The translations under genes were made by a program, and so were the position numbers. The notes below the pieces were generated by a model. It saw only the letters and a program-made list of their open reading frames with translations. It ran no database searches and was not told the DNA's origin. Of a stretch of DNA of 64,000 nucleotides, positions 20,703 to 61,432 are shown one piece after another; position 1 is the first letter of the stretch, and the number at the start of each line of letters is the position of its first letter. The DNA comes from Nitrososphaerota archaeon (lineage in GTDB: Archaea; Thermoproteota; Nitrososphaeria; Nitrososphaerales; Nitrosopumilaceae): the NCBI GenBank assembly GCA_028867785.1, contig JAGWFS010000001.1, forward strand, positions 186,001-250,000, read 5' to 3'.

Positions 20703-22490
20703 ATGCCCAAGTTCCAGAATAAACTTGTAGTCATTACCGGCAGCGGCACTGGAATAGGAAAGGCAATAGCGATCAAGTTTGCCGAGAACGGTGCAAACAT
20801 TGTCATTTTGGGAAGAAGAAAAGAACCGCTGGAGGAAGCTGCCAAGGAGTTGCAGCAGGTAATTGACAAGACAAGGAGCAATGCATTTGTGAAAATTTTT
20901 CCAGGAGTTGACGTCAGCGACGAGGAGGGAGTCTCAAAGATGTTTGATGAACTGAAAAAAGTCCACGGAACAGTCGACATTGTGATAAACAATGCCGGTG
21001 TTTCAGGCCCCGTAACATGTTTCCCCAATGCGCCAATAAACGATTTCAAGAGCACTGTTGGAATTCACCTCACAGGCACTTTTTGGACCTCGGCCCAGGC
21101 AATCAAGTCCATGAAGGCAGGATGCAAGATTGTTACGATATCCACGTTCTTCACAGAAGAGCGCCCGTTTGAGCAAAGACCCTACAGATTCAGGAGCCCA
21201 TATACCGCATCGCAGGGTGCAAAAAACAGGCTTGCAGAGGCAATGTCTTGGGAGCTCACAGACAAGGGAATCACATCCATTGCAACAAACCCAGGACCTG
21301 TCCACTCTGACAGGATATACAAAACAGTCTATCCAAAGGCTGCAGCAGAATTTATGAGAGTTAGTGGTTTTGAGAGTCTTTCCCCAGAAGACGTAGAAAA
21401 AGTCAACAACGACATACTTCCGCTTCTTGGAGAAGACGAGAATACAGTAAAGAGCGGAATAGCAAAGGCTGCAGCAAACATTGCAAAAGCAAAATCGATA
21501 ACATCAGAGCAAGATATTCAAAAACTATCCTCTACCATCACCTCTCTTTTGACCAAGATACAACAGATTGCAGAAAAGGTTCAAAATAATACAAGCAAGA
21601 TGATTGCGGACGAGCAGTTCCTCTCACAGCAGCAGGTTGCCGAGACAGTCATGATGCTGTGCGACGAGGACATTGCAAAGATATTAAACGGCAAGGTGAT
21701 TCCAGGCGACAGAGTCTTCTATCCAGTCAAGCCGCACATAGCTTGTTCCATACCTGAGACCAAGTCAGATTACAACTCAAAAGTGGTTCTGTTTGTTGTG
21801 GATGCTACAGAAGAGTCAGACGTGAAAAGAGTAGAGCACTTGGCGCAAAATATAGAGAACAACGGCGGAAAGACAGTCATCCTGATCTCAAAGACAAGCA
21901 TAAAGCAAGCAGGAGAAAAACTATCCAAGTTCCATTCTCATGTGATGGACATTACAAGCCAAGAAAACATGAGAAGAATGCTAAACACGGCGACACAGAA
22001 GATCGGACCTGTTAACGCAGTCATCTATGTTACAGGAAAACTGCCGCAGGTTTCAAAACTAGTAGAGTTATCAAGGCAGCAGTGGGATGGACTTGTTGAC
22101 AAGTTCATAAACACTCCTGCTATTGTTCTGCAGGAGACACTTGGGAGATTTGTACCAGACGGGGCAAAGAACCCACCTCTTTTCAAGGACAAACAAGGCA
22201 CAATCATAGTCATAGGACCAGACATGCCGTCAGGCGGAAAGGTGACTGGCATGGAGAGGGCCAAGGTTGAGGTCTTCCGAGGCGCCCTGAGGCCATTTGC
22301 AACCACTGTCAACCAGGAGCTAAGCGACGTGCTCAAGTCAAAGATAAGGCTGCACCTCATACTGCCCGGAAGCATTGACGGCACAGAGCCCAGCAATGAC
22401 AGGATTCTAAACGCGGTAAACTTTTTCAGTTCCGGCAAGGCAATATCAAACTCTGAGATAATCTACTATCCAGACGAAACAAGATCCTGA
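20703..22490 (+). CDS. Two-domain short-chain dehydrogenase (malonyl-CoA reductase half-like)
   Basis: A 595-residue protein with two Rossmann domains joined by a helical linker. Domain 1 has the nucleotide loop TGSGTGIG (residues 12-19), IVINNAGVSGP, and the active Tyr in SPYTASQGAKNRL; the usual YxxxK lysine is replaced by Gln, with a Lys only at Tyr+7. NPGPVHSDRIYKTVY resembles the GPxxSDR/GDR blocks of Chloroflexus bifunctional malonyl-CoA reductase, whose halves have the same SDR-linker-SDR order. Domain 2 (about 355-595) lacks TGxxxGxG but keeps VNAVIYVTGKLPQV. It is coupled to a MaoC-like gene (TGATG overlap). A role in the 3-hydroxypropionate/4-hydroxybutyrate cycle is possible but unproven. 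Confidence 0.85.
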   Translation: MPKFQNKLVVITGSGTGIGKAIAIKFAENGANIVILGRRKEPLEEAAKELQQVIDKTRSNAFVKIFPGVDVSDEEGVSKMFDELKKVHGTVDIVINNAGVSGPVTCFPNAPINDFKSTVGIHLTGTFWTSAQAIKSMKAGCKIVTISTFFTEERPFEQRPYRFRSPYTASQGAKNRLAEAMSWELTDKGITSIATNPGPVHSDRIYKTVYPKAAAEFMRVSGFESLSPEDVEKVNNDILPLLGEDENTVKSGIAKAAANIAKAKSITSEQDIQKLSSTITSLLTKIQQIAEKVQNNTSKMIADEQFLSQQQVAETVMMLCDEDIAKILNGKVIPGDRVFYPVKPHIACSIPETKSDYNSKVVLFVVDATEESDVKRVEHLAQNIENNGGKTVILISKTSIKQAGEKLSKFHSHVMDITSQENMRRMLNTATQKIGPVNAVIYVTGKLPQVSKLVELSRQQWDGLVDKFINTPAIVLQETLGRFVPDGAKNPPLFKDKQGTIIVIGPDMPSGGKVTGMERAKVEVFRGALRPFATTVNQELSDVLKSKIRLHLILPGSIDGTEPSNDRILNAVNFFSSGKAISNSEIIYYPDETRS

Positions 22491-22951
22491 TGAAGCGGTT
22501 CTCCGAACTCAAAGCGGGAGACGAATTTTTTTCAGAATGCACAATCACCCCGGATGATCTTGAAAAATATATCTCCTTTTCAGGGATTAAAAACGTGATT
22601 TATGAAAAAGAGGAATTTTCGGACAAGCGCGGCAAGATGGTTTCAGGCAGGGCAATACTTGCAAGAATAGAGGGCGAGTTTACAAGACTTGACGAGATGT
22701 ATGGCAACCTCCTAATATTTTACGGAATTGACGGCGACCCATCATGGAACAACAGGCAGACAAGGTTTCTCAGGCCCCTCCACACTGACGAAAAACTAAA
22801 GATAAAATTCACACTGTCCGACAAGCGGGACCTCAATGACGATTTTGGCTTGCTTGCAATAGATTTCGAGGGAAAAAGAGACGATGGAGAGACGGTGCTC
22901 CTGTCGAAAAGAAACCTCTATCAGATGAAAAAAGAGCCTCCGGCCAAGTAG
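22490..22951 (+). CDS. MaoC-like (hotdog fold) dehydratase-family protein
   Basis: A 153-residue single hotdog domain similar to MaoC-type enoyl-CoA hydratases: KAGDEFFSECTITPDDLEKYI at the start, VSGRAILARIEGEF for the central helix, and NNRQTRFLRPLHTDEKLKIK for the strands. The canonical Asp-x4-His hydratase pair is not evident, so activity is uncertain; it may only bind acyl-CoA. The ATG shares a base with the SDR stop, implying coupled translation and joint function. Confidence 0.78.
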   Translation: MKRFSELKAGDEFFSECTITPDDLEKYISFSGIKNVIYEKEEFSDKRGKMVSGRAILARIEGEFTRLDEMYGNLLIFYGIDGDPSWNNRQTRFLRPLHTDEKLKIKFTLSDKRDLNDDFGLLAIDFEGKRDDGETVLLSKRNLYQMKKEPPAK

Positions 22952-35558: not shown

Positions 35559-36974
35559 TCAGTAAAGAAAGCTTAGCAATTTTATTTGCTGTTCTGTAGT
35601 TATCATGTTCTTTGATGCCATGATCTCAAGAAGCTGAGTTATCAATTGTTTTTGCTGTTCTGAAAATCCCGGCTGTCCTGATGGACCTGGTGGACCCGGC
35701 GGACCCCTTGGACCCTGTTCGCCCATTGGACCTTGCGGACCTTGAGGGCCCTTGTCTCCCTGTGGTCCCGGAGGACCTGTAACTCCCTTGTCACCCTGTG
35801 GACCCTGAACTCCTTGCGGGCCCTTGTCTCCGGACTGACCCTGCGGACCCAATGGGCCTTTTTCACCCTGTGGACCCTGAATACCCTGTGGGCCCGGAGG
35901 ACCTTGTTGGCCTGGAGGGCCCCTTGGACCCTGTTCTCCAGGAGGACCGGGCAGACCCCTTGGGCCTTTTTCTCCCTGCGGTCCCGGAATTCCAGTGAGC
36001 CCCTTTTCTCCAGGAGGACCTTGCGGGCCTTGAGGGCCCTTGTCTCCAAGTGGGCCTTGCGGACCTGTCAATCCCTTGTCACCTTGCGGACCTTGAGGAC
36101 CTACTGAGCCCTTGTCTCCAAGTGGACCTGTAGGACCTTTTGGGCCTTTTTCTCCCGGAGGTCCCAAAATTCCCTTGTCCCCTTGAGGGCCAGGCGGACC
36201 GGTGGTGCCTTTTTCACCTATAGGTCCAATCTCTCCCGTTATCCCTTTTTCTCCCTTGTCTCCCTTGTCACCTTTATCTCCCTTGTCACCTGTCTCCCCC
36301 TTTTCCCCACGCGGGCCCTTGTCACCTGACGGGCCCTTGTCACCGGTAATTCCCTTGTCACCGATTGGTCCCTTGTCTCCTCTGTCTCCCTTGTCGCCGG
36401 GAGGACCCTGCGGACCCTTGTCTCCAAGAAGGCCTTGCGGGCCTGGTACTCCTTTATCTCCCTGCTGTCCCGGAATTCCTTGCGGACCGACTGGTCCCTG
36501 TGGGCCGGGTAGACCTGGCAGACCCTGCACCCCCGTAGGTCCCTGCTGACCGCGTGGTCCTGGAGTACCAGGCTGCGGGTAATAATATTCAGATGGTTGT
36601 TTTGGGCTGCTCCTTGCAGGTTCTTCTTTTGGATAGCTTGGCGGTGGATACGCCTCACCTGCAATTTGTGGCACGCTGACTTGGAATACAGCATTAATTG
36701 ATGAGAATTGATCCAAAACTACAATCCAAACTGAGCCCCTTGCAAATACAGAATCAGGAATAGGATTTCTTGCAGAGCCAAGTGTCTGCATAAACTTGCT
36801 GTCTTTTACCCTTAGGTGAAAGTTGTCTTTCCAGAGAGTAGGAAAGTTTCTGCGCTTTACGTCGTCTTGAGATGGCTGATAGTCACAGATTGAGATCTGT
36901 ACCTCAAAAACGCCCGATGACATCTTAAACGGCGACTCACCAGATATTTCAATAGTCTTATCTCCGGCTGACAT
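35559..36974 (-). CDS. Collagen-like protein with 100 Gly-X-Y triplets
   Basis: A 471-residue protein in three parts. Residues 1-135 form a beta-rich globular domain with a Pro-rich end ([13 protein letters not shown]). Residues 136-435 are exactly 100 uninterrupted Gly-X-Y triplets (by hand count), including 18 GDK and 7 GEK; K-G-D/E steps are known to stabilise triple helices without hydroxyproline. Residues 437-471 ([20 protein letters not shown]) form an amphipathic helix that could help trimerise. No signal peptide is visible. TATA-like ctgataaatac (37006-37013) precedes the ATG. The DNA is repetitive and prone to copy-number change. Confidence 0.88.
35670..36569 (-). repeat. Tandem 9-bp-unit region coding Gly-X-Y triplets
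   Basis: 900 bp of codon-level repetition with recurring cccttgtc(t/a)cc and gg(t/a)cc blocks (plus strand), encoding 100 Gly-X-Y triplets. Near-identical blocks such as those around 36240-36300 (four GDK in a row) are likely slippage sites. Confidence 0.85.
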
Positions 36975-55700: not shown

Positions 55701-58700
55701 TCATTTGATAACATGATTATCTACAAGATACTTTATGACATCTGCAAAGTCATCCGGGGTTATGGTGCCGTCCACAAGGTACCTGGCCACCTTCTTCATC
55801 ACCCACGATGGGATGTGACTGCCTTGGTATCCCATTGACTGTAGCATTTGAGAATCCGATATGGAAGTAGGATTGTAGCCTGCCCACTCTTTTACTGTGG
55901 TTACCAGATCGCTTGTATTTGTGTTTGCGATTGTGTTTTGGTTGGTGGCAGATGGACTTGGTACTGGGTTTATGCTCTGTGAAGATTGAGTGGTACCATG
56001 TGTTGATTCCGCGGTCTCTGCATTTTCGGTTGACTGGATTGCGTTGATAAGATATACATCCTGTGAAAAAGTGTCATAACCCCATGTCCTGATTCCAATA
56101 TCGGATAGTGGCATTGCTTTTACAAAGGTACCATGAAACGTCACATCAAGCTTGTTGCCTACAACTGTTGTGTTTGCAGTAACAGGCCCAAAGAAATGAT
56201 TTGGATCGGATATCTGCAGCGGCTGGGCCGCATCCCAAGCTAATATGGCATCAGCACCTATAATTGAAGCAAAGTTGCCACGTATGTTTAGTGCAAGTGA
56301 GACATGTTTTACAGATTGCGGTCCGTTGTCACCGTATAACATTACTGACATGGTAAATGGGCTTCCCACAGGAATCATACTGAATGGCCCTGTGTTGGTA
56401 TAGTTTGGAAGCTTGTATGCATTGTTGTTTATGGTAAGTGGATATTCATTTTGTGCAAAGCCTGTCGTAAACGACGGCGCAAACCCCGGAGTGCTACCGC
56501 CATGACCGGTACTTGCAGATGTAAGTGAACCAAACGTTGTAAAATGATATGTGACTATTTTTGTGTCAACACCGTTTGAGATAAAACACTCTCCCGGAAA
56601 TGCAGGGTTGGATGGCGACGTATATGTTCCCACACATGCATGTGTGATCTGCGTCCAGGCATCTGAGCCAGCTGGCTTGTATCCTACATTTCCTGTCACT
56701 CCAGAGAGAAGCAAAGTAGTTGGCTTGTCAAATAAAAGAACAACATTTGGAGATCCTACTTCAATTACAGTATTACCCACTGAAAAGCCTGATGGTGCAG
56801 TACCAGAAGAAGAACCTGTCTTCGGCGGGTTTATTTTTCCATCCCAGCCACTTGGTGCAAGAACTACAGCACCATCTGGAATGGAGACGCTTATGTCAGG
56901 CAGGACAGTGTTCGTAATCGTTATGGGGGTTCCCACTTGACCAGAAGACATCTTGACGGCCTTTTCAACTGAGATGTGTTGGTCTCCAATATTTTGTGGT
57001 ACGGCTAAATTAATATCTGACAGTGCACCGCTTGTGTAACTGTTCAATCCAATTGTAGAACCAGCAACAACTATGTTTCCTCCAGATGCAGTGCTGACAG
57101 AACTAGCAAGGTTGAGAGCAGTGTTATTGCCAAGAGTGATAACAGTGGTACCGCTTGGCATATCTGCTTGGCCTGCATTTGTAGAGGACAGACCGATGTC
57201 TTCTGCTGTGGCATTTATTGTGGTTCCACTGACTTGGGAAGACAGAATGGTCTTTCCAGAATTCATGTACCACGGATCAAAAGCAACAGGGCCAGAAATT
57301 TTGCTTGCAATTGTAGACGAGTCCGTAGATCCCCACCAGTTTTTGGTGGCATCAAGCGTACCGGTCGAGGTGTTGTTTACACCATAACGTCTGCTATCGA
57401 CGATGTTATTGGAGTTTATATGAATGTCATTTCCAGTGAGATCCCATAGTGTTCCACCGGTTCTTTTTCCAATCGTGCTTATGCCATCATATGCGTCAGA
57501 AATTGTATTACCAGTGACTATTATATGATCTATGTCAGGGCTCAGTCGGATCGCATAGGTCAATGATCCTGCCAAACCGCAATCATCGAAGGTGTTTCCT
57601 GAGACGGTTACTGTGTTTGAGGGAATGATTCCATACTGGCTTCCCCACAGTTCGAGGCATGCCACAGATGATCTCCCTTGAAAGACATTATTGGACAGGG
57701 TCGAGTGGTGCAGAGCGATCTGCATATCCAGACCGCTGGATGACGGAGCATCAAACGTATTCCCATTCACAACCCCGTTGGTTATGTTGAAACCTATGTT
57801 GACTATATCATGAATAGTGTTGTTACTAAGCTCAAAACCGTTGATAGTGCCTCCCACGTTCATGAAGATAGCAAATTGGCCATCTGTCTCGCTAACTGCA
57901 TTGACCGTGTTGTTGTCTATCTTCACATTAGTGTATGTGGCTGTGTCTCCAAAAACGATGTCATATGCATCGCCACCCAGTCTGTTGTGCATGATGTTAA
58001 TGCCGTTGCCACCATTCTCTATCGTAACGGCTCTGACTCCACCGCTTATGATATCATACGAGATGGTCAAACCTGAGATATCCACGCCGGTAGTAAGGGT
58101 ACTGTAGATTGCTTCGCCATCATTATCCGCATAAATAGTGAAACCTTTGATTACGATATTGCCTGCGAGCGGTGTTATCGTAAATCCATGGCCACCATTA
58201 ATGATTGCCTCGTTAACACGAGTACCGGTGTTTGGATCCACATCAGCATTTGGGCCCGACAGAGTCACAGATTTTGTAATGGACAAATTCTCAGCATACG
58301 TGCCAGCACTAACCCAGATGAAATCATCAGAGTGGGCAAGGTCTATACACGATTGGATGCGTGATTGAATAGCATAAATTGGAAAACTTCGACTACCAAC
58401 CATTCCTGTATCTGCACGGACAGACGTGCGGTCTACATCGGTCGTAACCAAGACGGCATTGTCAAAGACGTTGTTGGTGAATGCCGTTGCAAGGTTGATG
58501 ACTGGTATTAGCGGATTGGCTGCATTCTGACCGCCCTGAACCAAAATTGGGTTGTCAAGCCCCGAGTGAAACACATTGCTTGTAACGTTGTCAGGTCCTG
58601 TCGGTATAGTATAAGCAGTAGAATCCCACCAAGCAGGCATATAGCCCACCAAGTCAAGACCGTTGGACTGTGTCTGGCCAGACCCGGGTTGAACTTCATT

Positions 58701-59513
58701 ACCTGATATTGTACGAACTGCACCTGGCACAAGAGCAGAATTTGGATCCCAAGTCAGTGTATAGGTCGCAAAGCCGCCACTGGTTCCAGAGACAGTATAT
58801 GTATGCCGTATTCCAACGCCACCTGCAACAGTCACCTCGCCTCCGGTGAAATGATTGTTTGTCAGTACAAAGTTGTCTACCTTGCCAGCGGCACCCTGCG
58901 CATTTATGCGTGGATCAAGAACATTTGTATTGACATCAAAATACATGGTCGAGGTACCAGTAGAACCCGAATTGTCTATTACGTTATTGGTAAAGGTCAG
59001 GTTATCACCCATCACTTCAATTGTCTTGTAGTATCCAGTATTTGAGCCGGGCACGAACTTGAGTCCTGAAATCTTGACATTGTCTGCCACTACAGTATTG
59101 AGAAAGCCAAAGTCGGCCTTTCCTGCAGCAGCAATGGTGGCCCGTGCATTACTTGCATCCACTATTGGGTTGCCATTTACGTCCACACCTTCAAGTATGA
59201 TGTTGTTCTTGTTGATAAAAAGGCCCACAGTGGGTGCGCCTCCGCACATTGGATAAGGGCAGACTGACGATTCAGTATAGCTTCCAGGATAGACAGAGAT
59301 TGTATCCCCCACACTTGCCGCATTGATTGCAGATTGGATGTGACAGTAGGGATGTCCTGATGCTGGTGTGTCGCTACAAGCGCTATCCCCTATGTTCACG
59401 TCCAGTGTTGCAGCTGCTGCACCACGGATTGAAAAAGACATTACTGTGATCAAAACGACAAAAATTGGAATGATTGTTCGCGTAATAATGCCTATTCTTA
59501 TTCGATCGTGCAA
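55701..59513 (-). CDS. Large exported right-handed beta-helix surface protein
   Basis: About 1270 residues. A signal peptide (IIPIFVVLITVMSFSIRGAA) precedes a NosD-like parallel beta-helix with many PbH1 turns (e.g. CHIQSAINAASVGDTISVYP, SGNTFDDCGLAGSLTYAIRL, NNTSTGTLDATKNWWGSTDS). After about residue 850 come a Ser/Gly-rich stretch, a beta-sandwich region (FTMSVMLYGDNGPQSVKHVS) and the last 65 residues with IPSWVMKKVARYLVDGTITP and IKYLVDN, a tail seen on many thaumarchaeal exported proteins. I start at TTG 59513, 26-30 bp after TATA-like ttcataaat (minus strand); an earlier start at 59645 would overlap the divergent PINA gene. Adhesin or polysaccharide-lyase-like roles are open. Confidence 0.85.
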   Translation of the reverse strand: MHDRIRIGIITRTIIPIFVVLITVMSFSIRGAAAATLDVNIGDSACSDTPASGHPYCHIQSAINAASVGDTISVYPGSYTESSVCPYPMCGGAPTVGLFINKNNIILEGVDVNGNPIVDASNARATIAAAGKADFGFLNTVVADNVKISGLKFVPGSNTGYYKTIEVMGDNLTFTNNVIDNSGSTGTSTMYFDVNTNVLDPRINAQGAAGKVDNFVLTNNHFTGGEVTVAGGVGIRHTYTVSGTSGGFATYTLTWDPNSALVPGAVRTISGNEVQPGSGQTQSNGLDLVGYMPAWWDSTAYTIPTGPDNVTSNVFHSGLDNPILVQGGQNAANPLIPVINLATAFTNNVFDNAVLVTTDVDRTSVRADTGMVGSRSFPIYAIQSRIQSCIDLAHSDDFIWVSAGTYAENLSITKSVTLSGPNADVDPNTGTRVNEAIINGGHGFTITPLAGNIVIKGFTIYADNDGEAIYSTLTTGVDISGLTISYDIISGGVRAVTIENGGNGINIMHNRLGGDAYDIVFGDTATYTNVKIDNNTVNAVSETDGQFAIFMNVGGTINGFELSNNTIHDIVNIGFNITNGVVNGNTFDAPSSSGLDMQIALHHSTLSNNVFQGRSSVACLELWGSQYGIIPSNTVTVSGNTFDDCGLAGSLTYAIRLSPDIDHIIVTGNTISDAYDGISTIGKRTGGTLWDLTGNDIHINSNNIVDSRRYGVNNTSTGTLDATKNWWGSTDSSTIASKISGPVAFDPWYMNSGKTILSSQVSGTTINATAEDIGLSSTNAGQADMPSGTTVITLGNNTALNLASSVSTASGGNIVVAGSTIGLNSYTSGALSDINLAVPQNIGDQHISVEKAVKMSSGQVGTPITITNTVLPDISVSIPDGAVVLAPSGWDGKINPPKTGSSSGTAPSGFSVGNTVIEVGSPNVVLLFDKPTTLLLSGVTGNVGYKPAGSDAWTQITHACVGTYTSPSNPAFPGECFISNGVDTKIVTYHFTTFGSLTSASTGHGGSTPGFAPSFTTGFAQNEYPLTINNNAYKLPNYTNTGPFSMIPVGSPFTMSVMLYGDNGPQSVKHVSLALNIRGNFASIIGADAILAWDAAQPLQISDPNHFFGPVTANTTVVGNKLDVTFHGTFVKAMPLSDIGIRTWGYDTFSQDVYLINAIQSTENAETAESTHGTTQSSQSINPVPSPSATNQNTIANTNTSDLVTTVKEWAGYNPTSISDSQMLQSMGYQGSHIPSWVMKKVARYLVDGTITPDDFADVIKYLVDNHVIK

Positions 59514-59620
59514 GATCGATAAAAAGCTGGTGCTCAATTCATAAATTTGCTTGAGTGTGTTTGAAAAGTGATAGCGCAGTACAGTTATGATTAAAAGGTG
59601 CCAGAGAACCTGACTATACG

Positions 59621-61432
59621 ATGGAAAAGATAGTAGTAGATACAAGTATCATAATAGACGGCGAGATAACCAAACTTATCGAGTCAGCAAGCCTCAGGGA
59701 CTGCGAAATAATTATTCCTGTTGCAGTTTTAGACGAACTTCAGGCCCAAGCCTCCCAGAACAAGGACTATGGATTTGTAGGATTAGAAGAGATAAAGAAA
59801 ATTCGCGAGTTGGCTCTGAAAAATAACATCTTGCTCAGATTTGAAGGGGAGCGTCCCAGTATGGACGACATAAAATTGGCAAGACACGGTAGAATTGATG
59901 CCATAATAAAGGACATTGCAAAAAAGAATAGCGCTACATTTTATACTGCAGATTATGTGCAGGCGTTGGTTGCACAGGCAGAAGGTATCAAGACCAGCTA
60001 CTCCAAACCCCAAGTCAAAATAGAAGATCTCGAATTTGAAAAATATTTTGATCAGCAAACCATGAGCATCCATCTCAAAGAAGGGGCAAGACCGGTTGCA
60101 AAGCGTGGAAGACCCGGGACATTTACCTTGGCCGAGCTTGATGACAAGACGCTGAAAAAAGAATACTTGGAAGGAATCACTACAGAGATTTTAGAGTCGT
60201 CCAGGGTCAACCAAAACGGGGTCATTGAGATTTCAAAGTCAGGTGCCCTGGTGGTTCAGTTTAGAGATTACAGAGTTGTAATAACGCATCGTCCGTTTTC
60301 CAATAGATATGAGATTACAATAACGCGTCCTCTTGTCAAGATGTCACTTGAACAATACAATCCATCCGAGAAGCTCATGCAGAGACTATCGGAAAATGCC
60401 GAGGGAATACTTGTAGCGGGGGCTCCCGGATCAGGCAAGAGCACCTTTGCATCAAGTCTTGCAGATTTTTATTCCAAAAAAGGCAAGATAGTAAAGACGT
60501 TTGAATCGCCAAGAGATCTCCAGGTAGACGAGAAGATCACCCAGTATACACACCTTGATGGAAGTTTTGAGAATGCAGCCGACATATTGCTCCTGGTGCG
60601 ACCTGACTATACCATATTTGACGAGATAAGAAGATATCATGATTTCAGGGTCTTCGCAGATTTGAGATTAGCAGGAGTAGGCATGGTAGGAGTGGTACAT
60701 GCAAACGCCCCGCTTGATGCAATTCAGAGATTCATAGGAAAAGTTGAGCTTGGGATGATCCCGCACATATTGGATACGGTAGTATACGTCAAGGCAGGTC
60801 AGATTTCCAAAGTATACGAGTTGGAATTCAAGGTCAAGGTACCCACAGGCATGACAGAACAAGATTTGGCAAGACCGGTAATAGAGGTCAGGAACTTTGA
60901 GAGCCACACGCTTGAATACGAGATTTACACGTATGGAGAGGAAAATATCGTTATACCAATTTCAAAAGAAGCAAAAAGCGGCGGAATTGAGAGGCTTGCA
61001 GAATCAAAGATAAAAGAGGTCATCAAGAGATTTGATTCGGATGCAGAAATTGAGATTCTTTCAAGCAACAGCGTTCGGGTTAAGGTTGACAAGGATTCCA
61101 TACCGTCATTGATTGGCAGGGGAGGCTCTACAATCAATGAGCTTGAAAAAAATCTTGGCGTCCATATAGACGTAGAGCAAAAAACAACAGCCTCTGATAA
61201 CAGAAGCAGTGAATGGTTTGAGATGTCAGAGTCTGGGAACAATTTGATTTTAGAAGTAGACGAGAACAAATCAGGAATGGATGCAGATGTCTACGTCAAG
61301 GGCAAACACTTGCTGTCTTCACGGATTGGAAAGAGAGGCAGGATCATAGTGGCCAAAAGGTCAAGCCCTGGAAAGAGAATAATTAACGCAGTCATGTCAA
61401 AAGATGACATCAAGATAGTGGTACACGACTAG
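59621..61432 (+). CDS. PINA: PIN-domain, PilT-like ATPase with KH domain
   Basis: A 603-residue archaeal protein with a PIN nuclease-like domain (VVDTSIIIDGEITKL, DAIIKDIAKKNSATFYTADY), a hexameric ATPase of the PilT/GspE type (Walker A VAGAPGSGKSTFASSL, Walker B TIFDEIRRYHDF) and a C-terminal KH domain (SIPSLIGRGGSTINELEKNL). Homologs in Sulfolobus (PINA) migrate along DNA and act with Holliday-junction enzymes. The first PIN aspartates are kept, so nuclease activity is possible. ATG 59621, divergent from the beta-helix gene. Confidence 0.93.
   Translation: MEKIVVDTSIIIDGEITKLIESASLRDCEIIIPVAVLDELQAQASQNKDYGFVGLEEIKKIRELALKNNILLRFEGERPSMDDIKLARHGRIDAIIKDIAKKNSATFYTADYVQALVAQAEGIKTSYSKPQVKIEDLEFEKYFDQQTMSIHLKEGARPVAKRGRPGTFTLAELDDKTLKKEYLEGITTEILESSRVNQNGVIEISKSGALVVQFRDYRVVITHRPFSNRYEITITRPLVKMSLEQYNPSEKLMQRLSENAEGILVAGAPGSGKSTFASSLADFYSKKGKIVKTFESPRDLQVDEKITQYTHLDGSFENAADILLLVRPDYTIFDEIRRYHDFRVFADLRLAGVGMVGVVHANAPLDAIQRFIGKVELGMIPHILDTVVYVKAGQISKVYELEFKVKVPTGMTEQDLARPVIEVRNFESHTLEYEIYTYGEENIVIPISKEAKSGGIERLAESKIKEVIKRFDSDAEIEILSSNSVRVKVDKDSIPSLIGRGGSTINELEKNLGVHIDVEQKTTASDNRSSEWFEMSESGNNLILEVDENKSGMDADVYVKGKHLLSSRIGKRGRIIVAKRSSPGKRIINAVMSKDDIKIVVHD

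Follow-up and report, generated by a model that had tools for sequence, protein, structure and literature searches.

A half-size relative of bifunctional malonyl-CoA reductase as a candidate malonyl-CoA reductase of ammonia-oxidizing archaea

Introduction

A 595-residue protein composed of two short-chain dehydrogenase/reductase (SDR) domains is encoded in a 64,000-nucleotide stretch of DNA from a Nitrososphaerota archaeon of the Nitrosopumilaceae (assembly GCA_028867785.1, contig JAGWFS010000001.1, positions 186,001 to 250,000; the whole stretch is hereafter called the window). The evidence tips somewhat in favor of this protein being the malonyl-CoA reductase (MCR) of the 3-hydroxypropionate/4-hydroxybutyrate cycle in ammonia-oxidizing archaea (AOA), as a half-size, single-active-site relative of the bifunctional MCR of the Chloroflexus type. 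AOA count among the most abundant autotrophs, and the cycle they use has been described as the most energy-efficient aerobic route of CO2 fixation (PMC11494057). The gene for the first reductive step of this cycle is listed as unidentified (PMC6038301, PMC6964070), and this open question becomes directly testable with one named candidate that is universal and single-copy and for which predictions can be made at the level of residues. If the assignment is true, carbon fixation in AOA would be linked to the Chloroflexus enzyme family, and the gene could serve as a marker of the AOA variant of the cycle; a monofunctional MCR with altered SDR chemistry would also become available for 3-hydroxypropionate production.

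Family relationship

An AlphaFold2 (AF2) model of the SDR-SDR protein was built from 30 AOA sequences (predicted local distance difference test score (pLDDT) 87.6, predicted template modeling score (pTM) 0.89) and compared with the Protein Data Bank (PDB) using Foldseek. Ranks 1-25 were all MCR structures, with E-values from 2.4e-24 to 4.6e-18, and the first match outside MCR was a generic single-domain SDR at 1.7e-12, a gap of about six orders of magnitude. Against the MCR structures, the query-normalized TM-score was approximately 0.7, the target-normalized TM-score reached 0.78 and the root-mean-square deviation was 6-9 Å. The tandem catalytic and degenerate SDR domains are placed relative to each other in the model as in MCR. 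In a phmmer search against PDB sequences, two full-length MCRs, from Roseiflexus and Chloroflexus, ranked first through matches to both halves. In addition, hhalign aligned the whole protein with both the N-terminal half of MCR (MCR-N, residues 2-562 on 2-562) and the C-terminal half (MCR-C, residues 4-588 on 11-646), at a probability of 99.6-99.7%.

In a tree of catalytic domains, the AOA sequences together with MCR SDR1 and SDR3 are split from 21 generic or other AOA SDRs with support of 97/95, and the same split is obtained without the motif columns at 85 (Shimodaira-Hasegawa-like approximate likelihood ratio test, quick search). This tree is unrooted, with modest generic sampling and several long branches, and the non-archaeal relatives were sampled through an MCR-based scan only. 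It points to shared ancestry of the catalytic domain with the catalytic domains of MCR rather than with generic SDRs. As judged from predicted fold, motif and tree, the SDR-SDR protein is MCR-like and resembles one half of MCR. This likeness had been proposed from the letters of the DNA alone, and it is borne out by predicted structure, motif and tree.

Active-site residues

Residue conservation was counted over 58 AOA orthologs, and MCR and generic SDRs were compared in a 51-row alignment. In RfxMCR, Tyr743, Arg746 and Tyr749 hold the malonate part of malonyl-CoA according to molecular dynamics, and this YxxRxxY motif is common to SDR1 and SDR3 (PMC10470521). Mutation of Arg746 or Arg785 markedly lowers the activity, and mutation of Ser731, Tyr749, Lys753 or Arg799 abolishes it (PMC10470521). 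Thr148, Tyr161, Arg164, Tyr167 and Arg204 of the AOA protein align with Ser731, Tyr743, Arg746, Tyr749 and Arg785, respectively, and all five are invariant in the orthologs. Tyr161, Arg164, Arg204 and Pro199 of the PGP motif are present in every AOA row and every MCR SDR1 and SDR3 row. In the generic and other AOA SDRs, Tyr161, Pro199 and Arg204 are not among the four commonest residues of their columns; an Arg is observed in the Arg164 column of three generic rows, and no generic SDR and no other AOA SDR among those examined has the full YxxRxxY motif. Thr148, Ser202 and Arg204 also match Thr165, Ser213 and Arg215 of MCR-N. The loop before the PY is longer in the AOA protein and SDR3, but not in SDR1, and the helical lid, as delimited by the AF2 model and alignment, has a length of approximately 100 residues in AOA, 147 in MCR-C and 42 in MCR-N.

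The SDR tetrad Asn-Ser-Tyr-Lys reads His122-Thr148-Tyr167-Gln171 in 58/58 orthologs, including those of families f2 and f5 (see below), so that the catalytic Lys of YxxxK is absent from the protein. The sequence-only reading had noted the motif NPGPVHSDRI, the nucleotide loop, the retained Tyr and the Gln at the Lys site, all of which are found at the residues given in Table 1; the invariant His122 is added here. As read from the alignment, this replacement of the tetrad is what is new. Since Gln171 is invariant, a Gln at the SDR Lys position is neither chance nor a read error, and with two tetrad residues replaced in every ortholog the chemistry must differ from that of a usual SDR. The Asn and Lys of the SDR tetrad belong to one proton relay, and their joint replacement is therefore unlikely to be a coincidence. 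Lys174, located one turn after Gln171 and exactly 7 residues after Tyr167, is also invariant (58/58).

In the proposed mechanism, NADPH would bind to domain 1, and Tyr161, Arg164, Tyr167 and Arg204 would hold the free carboxylate of malonyl-CoA beneath the helical lid, while domain 2 would serve as a scaffold without a catalytic role. Hydride would then attack the carbonyl of the thioester, and CoA and malonic semialdehyde would be released; reduction of the semialdehyde to 3-hydroxypropionate would fall to another enzyme, of the Nmar_1110 type where present. We infer that the changes from Asn to His122 and from Lys to Gln171 would weaken the alcohol-forming proton relay and could prevent reduction of the aldehyde product: aldehyde reduction needs protonation of the alkoxide and thioester reduction does not, so that loss of the relay could stop the formation of 3-hydroxypropionate.

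Distribution among archaea

The survey covered 400 genomes of the class, in which a full-length ortholog was defined by an E-value below 1e-100. Such orthologs are confined to four families (f1, f2, f3 and f5). The gene is present in 136/136 AOA genomes that are at least 95% complete and in 0/25 equally complete genomes of non-AOA relatives from other families, and it is single-copy in all 30 AOA genomes in which copies were counted at this threshold. In a sample of 200 genomes of the phylum, matches were observed in AOA only, and none in Thermoproteota from outside the class. The families with amoA are the same four; this gene was detected in 41 of the 80 genomes tested, and in only two of these 41, which are 86% and 92% complete, was the SDR-SDR gene not found. 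4-Hydroxybutyryl-CoA dehydratase (PF11794) was tried as a cycle marker and rejected; this family is too wide, occurring in non-AOA, and amoA was therefore used as the marker. Two f1 genomes (G144 and G148, 93% complete) contain the dehydratase family; searches found no amoA and no SDR-SDR gene in them, which is likely due to incomplete assembly and may also reflect a true loss.

The missing reductase and other enzyme families

MCR activity has been measured in extracts of Nitrosopumilus maritimus, and the genes for succinyl-CoA reductase and acryloyl-CoA reductase are also listed as unidentified (PMC6038301). In a marker set from 2026, the thaumarchaeal variant is without a marker for MCR (PMC12894919). 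The next step, reduction of malonic semialdehyde, has been biochemically characterized in N. maritimus with Nmar_1110 (Otte 2015, as cited in PMC7845616 and PMC5797428). The sequence-only reading held that both reductions had been assigned mainly by homology. This does not apply to the malonic semialdehyde step, and since that step is characterized and the MCR gene is not, the gap is sharper than had been stated. A homolog of the Chloroflexus MCR was sought in Nitrosocaldus by Abby 2018 and none was reported; only SDRs of approximately 30% identity were described, which were named as possible malonic semialdehyde reductases (PMC5797428). Our literature search, which covered Koenneke 2014 and Otte 2015 through citing papers, found no AOA protein already proposed as MCR.

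Other acyl-CoA reductase families were also considered. Aldehyde dehydrogenases (PF00171) are absent from 4/20 AOA genomes (G046, G089, G103 and G124), so that a universal succinyl-CoA reductase of AOA cannot belong to this family, and the LuxC matches in AOA coincide with aldehyde dehydrogenase genes. Each AOA genome has exactly two semialdehyde dehydrogenases (PF02774), which, where typed, were identified as Asd and ArgC by matches to asd_EA and argC above the cut-off. By these family matches, there is no spare universal AOA gene in the other families tested, and a single Asd may do double duty as acyl-CoA reductase. Because the MCR gene is listed as unidentified and these families offer no spare gene, the SDR-SDR protein is the best candidate for MCR and possibly for the succinyl-CoA reductase as well, and from this its proposed link to the cycle is drawn.

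Genomes G067, G077, G080, G099, G136 and G163 (f2) and G112 (f5) have no iron alcohol dehydrogenase that matches Nmar_1110 in size and score class, which leaves the malonic semialdehyde reductase step without an assigned gene in those genomes. The same absence has been reported for Nitrosocaldus cavascurensis by Abby 2018 (PMC5797428).

Arguments against the assignment

Several observations weigh against the SDR-SDR protein as the AOA MCR. By analogy, the strongest of these argues against a simple carry-over of the mechanism: Gln171 occupies the site of Lys753, and the Lys753 mutant of RfxMCR is inactive (PMC10470521). No AOA Arg is aligned with the lid Arg799 or with SDR4 Arg1164, which are thought to hold CoA, in a region of weak alignment (lid and domain 2) where hhalign puts Val220 and Asp542 at these positions; the invariant Arg219 is one residue from the position aligned with Arg799. 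No cycle gene was recognized beside the SDR-SDR gene at 21 loci. The 4-hydroxybutyryl-CoA dehydratase family is wider than AOA, and the AOA-restricted distribution of the SDR-SDR gene fits any AOA-wide function.

Profile scores also place neither domain 1 nor domain 2 nearer to MCR than to generic SDRs. Domain 1 scores 86.6 bits with MCR SDR3, 77.2 with SDR1 and 93.6 with the generic SDR 4iuy, and domain 2 alone is not specific for MCR in profile comparison; MCR SDR2 and SDR4 themselves score near nothing against each other. As an arbiter between MCR and generic SDRs, the score was discarded as uninformative, since per domain the values for generic SDRs are about as high; the score alone settles nothing, and fold, motif and tree decide. 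The claimed closeness to MCR over generic SDRs stands for fold, motif and tree, and single-domain scores do not separate the two.

Alternative functions

A bolder form of the assignment, which we consider a good deal more doubtful, is that one half-size enzyme with the tetrad His-Thr-Tyr-Gln would carry out every acyl-CoA reduction in the AOA cycle, taking malonyl-CoA as well as succinyl-CoA to the respective semialdehyde and no further, and that a half-size SDR-SDR ancestor shared with bacterial MCR would have been duplicated and fused in bacteria.

The protein could also be a fusion of two SDR domains that is specific to AOA and has no part in the cycle, being involved for example in lipid, polyhydroxyalkanoate or cofactor metabolism, and that reached the MCR-like arrangement independently. 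The absence of observed clustering with cycle genes and the domain scores in favor of generic SDRs would agree with this, and the MaoC-type neighbor in some AOA would fit acyl chain chemistry. It is nonetheless unlikely in view of the substrate residues that are otherwise found only in MCR, the tree support with and without the motif columns and the Foldseek gap between MCR and generic SDRs.

Succinyl-CoA is a CoA ester with a free carboxylate as well, so that YxxRxxY and Arg204 would serve for its reduction to succinic semialdehyde, with malonyl-CoA being reduced by another enzyme. A function as succinyl-CoA reductase, the gene for which is likewise listed as unidentified (PMC6038301) and for which a universal aldehyde dehydrogenase is excluded by the four AOA without any, has only a slim chance of being correct, as the known YxxRxxY relatives use C3 compounds, namely malonyl-CoA and malonic semialdehyde, as substrates (PMC10470521).

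Reduction of malonic semialdehyde, alone or together with that of malonyl-CoA as in MCR, would account for the f2 and f5 genomes that have the SDR-SDR gene but no Nmar_1110-class enzyme; low-identity SDRs have been named candidates for this step in Nitrosocaldus (Abby 2018, PMC5797428), and Thr148, Ser202 and Arg204 have their counterparts in MCR-N. The probability of this function is low: the alcohol-forming tetrad is broken (His122 and Gln171) in every AOA, f2 and f5 included, the gene is kept beside Nmar_1110-type enzymes in f1 and f3, and the long lid and the extended loop before the PY are nearer to MCR-C than to MCR-N.

Lys174, invariant and exactly 7 residues past Tyr167, gives the Tyr-x6-Lys spacing (Y167...K174) of the FabI type. 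An enoyl-CoA reductase coupled to the dehydratase-like hotdog protein, and thus the acryloyl-CoA reductase also listed as unidentified (PMC6038301), is quite improbable, since acryloyl-CoA lacks a carboxylate for Y161, R164 and R204, the MCR alignment is gapless through Tyr167 and Gln171, the nearest folds are MCR and not enoyl reductases, and the hotdog partner is missing in many AOA.

Locus and neighboring genes

The features of the locus are given in Table 1. The open reading frame (ORF) of 595 residues in SDR-linker-SDR order and its one-base overlap with the hotdog gene, as read from the sequence before, agree with these coordinates; base 22490 is common to the stop TGA of the SDR-SDR gene (22488-22490) and the ATG of the hotdog gene (TGATG). 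The Pfam match of PF00106 in domain 1 covers residues 7-203 (E 1.9e-43). No NCBIfam SDR model is above cut-off among the best 25 matches listed, and for this reason the SDR-SDR protein is without a curated name. Neighbors of the SDR-SDR gene include those for a tRNA endonuclease, PhoU-like protein, DNA ligase and TauE permease.

Table 1. Positions of the two genes and of the features of the SDR-SDR protein in the window
Feature	Position	Strand	Basis or remark
SDR-SDR protein ORF, 595 residues and stop	20703..22490	+	ATG start; MCR-half-like, candidate MCR of AOA
MaoC-type hotdog protein ORF, 153 residues	22490..22951	+	accessory; without invariant catalytic His
Domain 1, residues 1-345, catalytic SDR with lid insertion	20703..21737	+	PF00106; AF2 secondary structure
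NADP-binding loop T12GSGTGIG19	20736..20759	+	ortholog alignment
Arg38, at position of NADP-binding MCR Arg616	20814..20816	+	alignment; role of Arg616 from PMC10470521
His122, replacing SDR tetrad Asn	21066..21068	+	invariant in 58 orthologs
Thr148, tetrad Ser/Thr (MCR Ser731 / Thr165)	21144..21146	+	alignment
Y161-x-x-R164-x-x-Y167-x-x-x-Q171; MCR YxxRxxY kept, SDR Lys to Gln	21183..21215	+	alignment; MCR residues from PMC10470521
N196PGPVHSDRI205; PGP and Arg204 (MCR Arg785 / Arg215) common to MCR only	21288..21317	+	alignment
Helical lid insertion, about 100 residues	21318..21617	+	AF2 model, alignment
Domain 2, residues 355-595, non-catalytic by sequence and model; a degenerate Rossmann/SDR domain in which glycine loop and YxxxK are missing, as in MCR SDR2/SDR4	21765..22487	+	

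Neither Pfam nor NCBIfam gives a match for the hotdog ORF. The best Foldseek matches of its model are 1q6w, 4ffu and PhaJ, which supports the earlier description of the second gene as MaoC-like with a hotdog fold. MaoC (R)-hydratases have a catalytic Asp/His dyad, and the nine orthologs of the hotdog protein show no invariant His and no dyad of the D-x4-H type. The gene was detected in 13 of the 48 genomes searched, all among the 30 AOA with the SDR-SDR gene; it is absent in several AOA lineages and adjoins the SDR-SDR gene only in part of f1. In f3, hotdog relatives are located elsewhere in the genome (G109:C1:1039858-1040311, G070:C1:2194317-2194784 and G248:C111:4109-4480) and are sometimes interrupted by stops, as if decaying. 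A universal SDR-MaoC operon was rejected on this patchy distribution: of the pair that had been suggested for survey across AOA, the SDR-SDR gene is universal (136/136) and the MaoC neighbor is not (13/30). The hotdog protein is accessory and not needed for the main function, and a guess from its predicted fold is that it is perhaps acyl-CoA binding or thioesterase-like.

Two other ORFs were observed on the minus strand of the window. A 471-residue ORF (35559-36974) consists mostly of collagen-like G-x-y repeats (PQGPxGDKG), and a 1314-residue ORF (55701-59645) is like a secreted parallel beta-helix surface protein, as judged by eye from its repeats.

Comparison with known systems

The C-terminal half of MCR from the 3-hydroxypropionate bi-cycle of Chloroflexus and Roseiflexus (SDR3-ED-SDR4; PDB 8hi5, 8a30 and 8i6z) has the same order of catalytic SDR, lid and degenerate SDR as the AOA protein. 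Both have YxxRxxY with the extended loop before it, PGP, the equivalents of Arg785 and Arg616, and the helical lid. The AOA protein differs from MCR-C in its shorter lid, in Gln171 for Lys753 and His122 for the tetrad Asn, and in that equivalents of Arg799 and Arg1164 were not found in it; the identity is approximately 16-18% in structural alignment. Bifunctional MCR consists of two fused halves of approximately 1220 residues in total, whereas the AOA protein is unfused and has one catalytic domain. The N-terminal half, the malonic semialdehyde reductase SDR1-SDR2 (PDB 8hi6 and 8aew), shares the architecture, YxxRxxY and the equivalents of Thr165, Ser213 and Arg215, and its structures give the highest target-normalized TM-scores against the AOA model (0.74-0.78). 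Unlike MCR-N, the AOA protein has the lid, which MCR-N is without, and a broken alcohol-forming tetrad.

The MaoC-like hotdog proteins (PDB 1q6w, 4ffu and PhaJ 1iq6) have their fold in common with the 153-residue neighbor, which differs from them in its lack of an invariant His or D-x4-H dyad. In the crenarchaeal version of the cycle, the same step is catalyzed by the malonyl-CoA/succinyl-CoA reductase of Sulfolobales, which is of the aspartate-semialdehyde dehydrogenase type. This family is unrelated to the AOA SDR-SDR protein, and the two PF02774 members of each AOA genome are, where typed, Asd and ArgC. The iron alcohol dehydrogenase Nmar_1110, missing in f2 and f5, is also of an unrelated family; it catalyzes the step that follows in the AOA cycle and would thus use the product of the SDR-SDR enzyme as its substrate.
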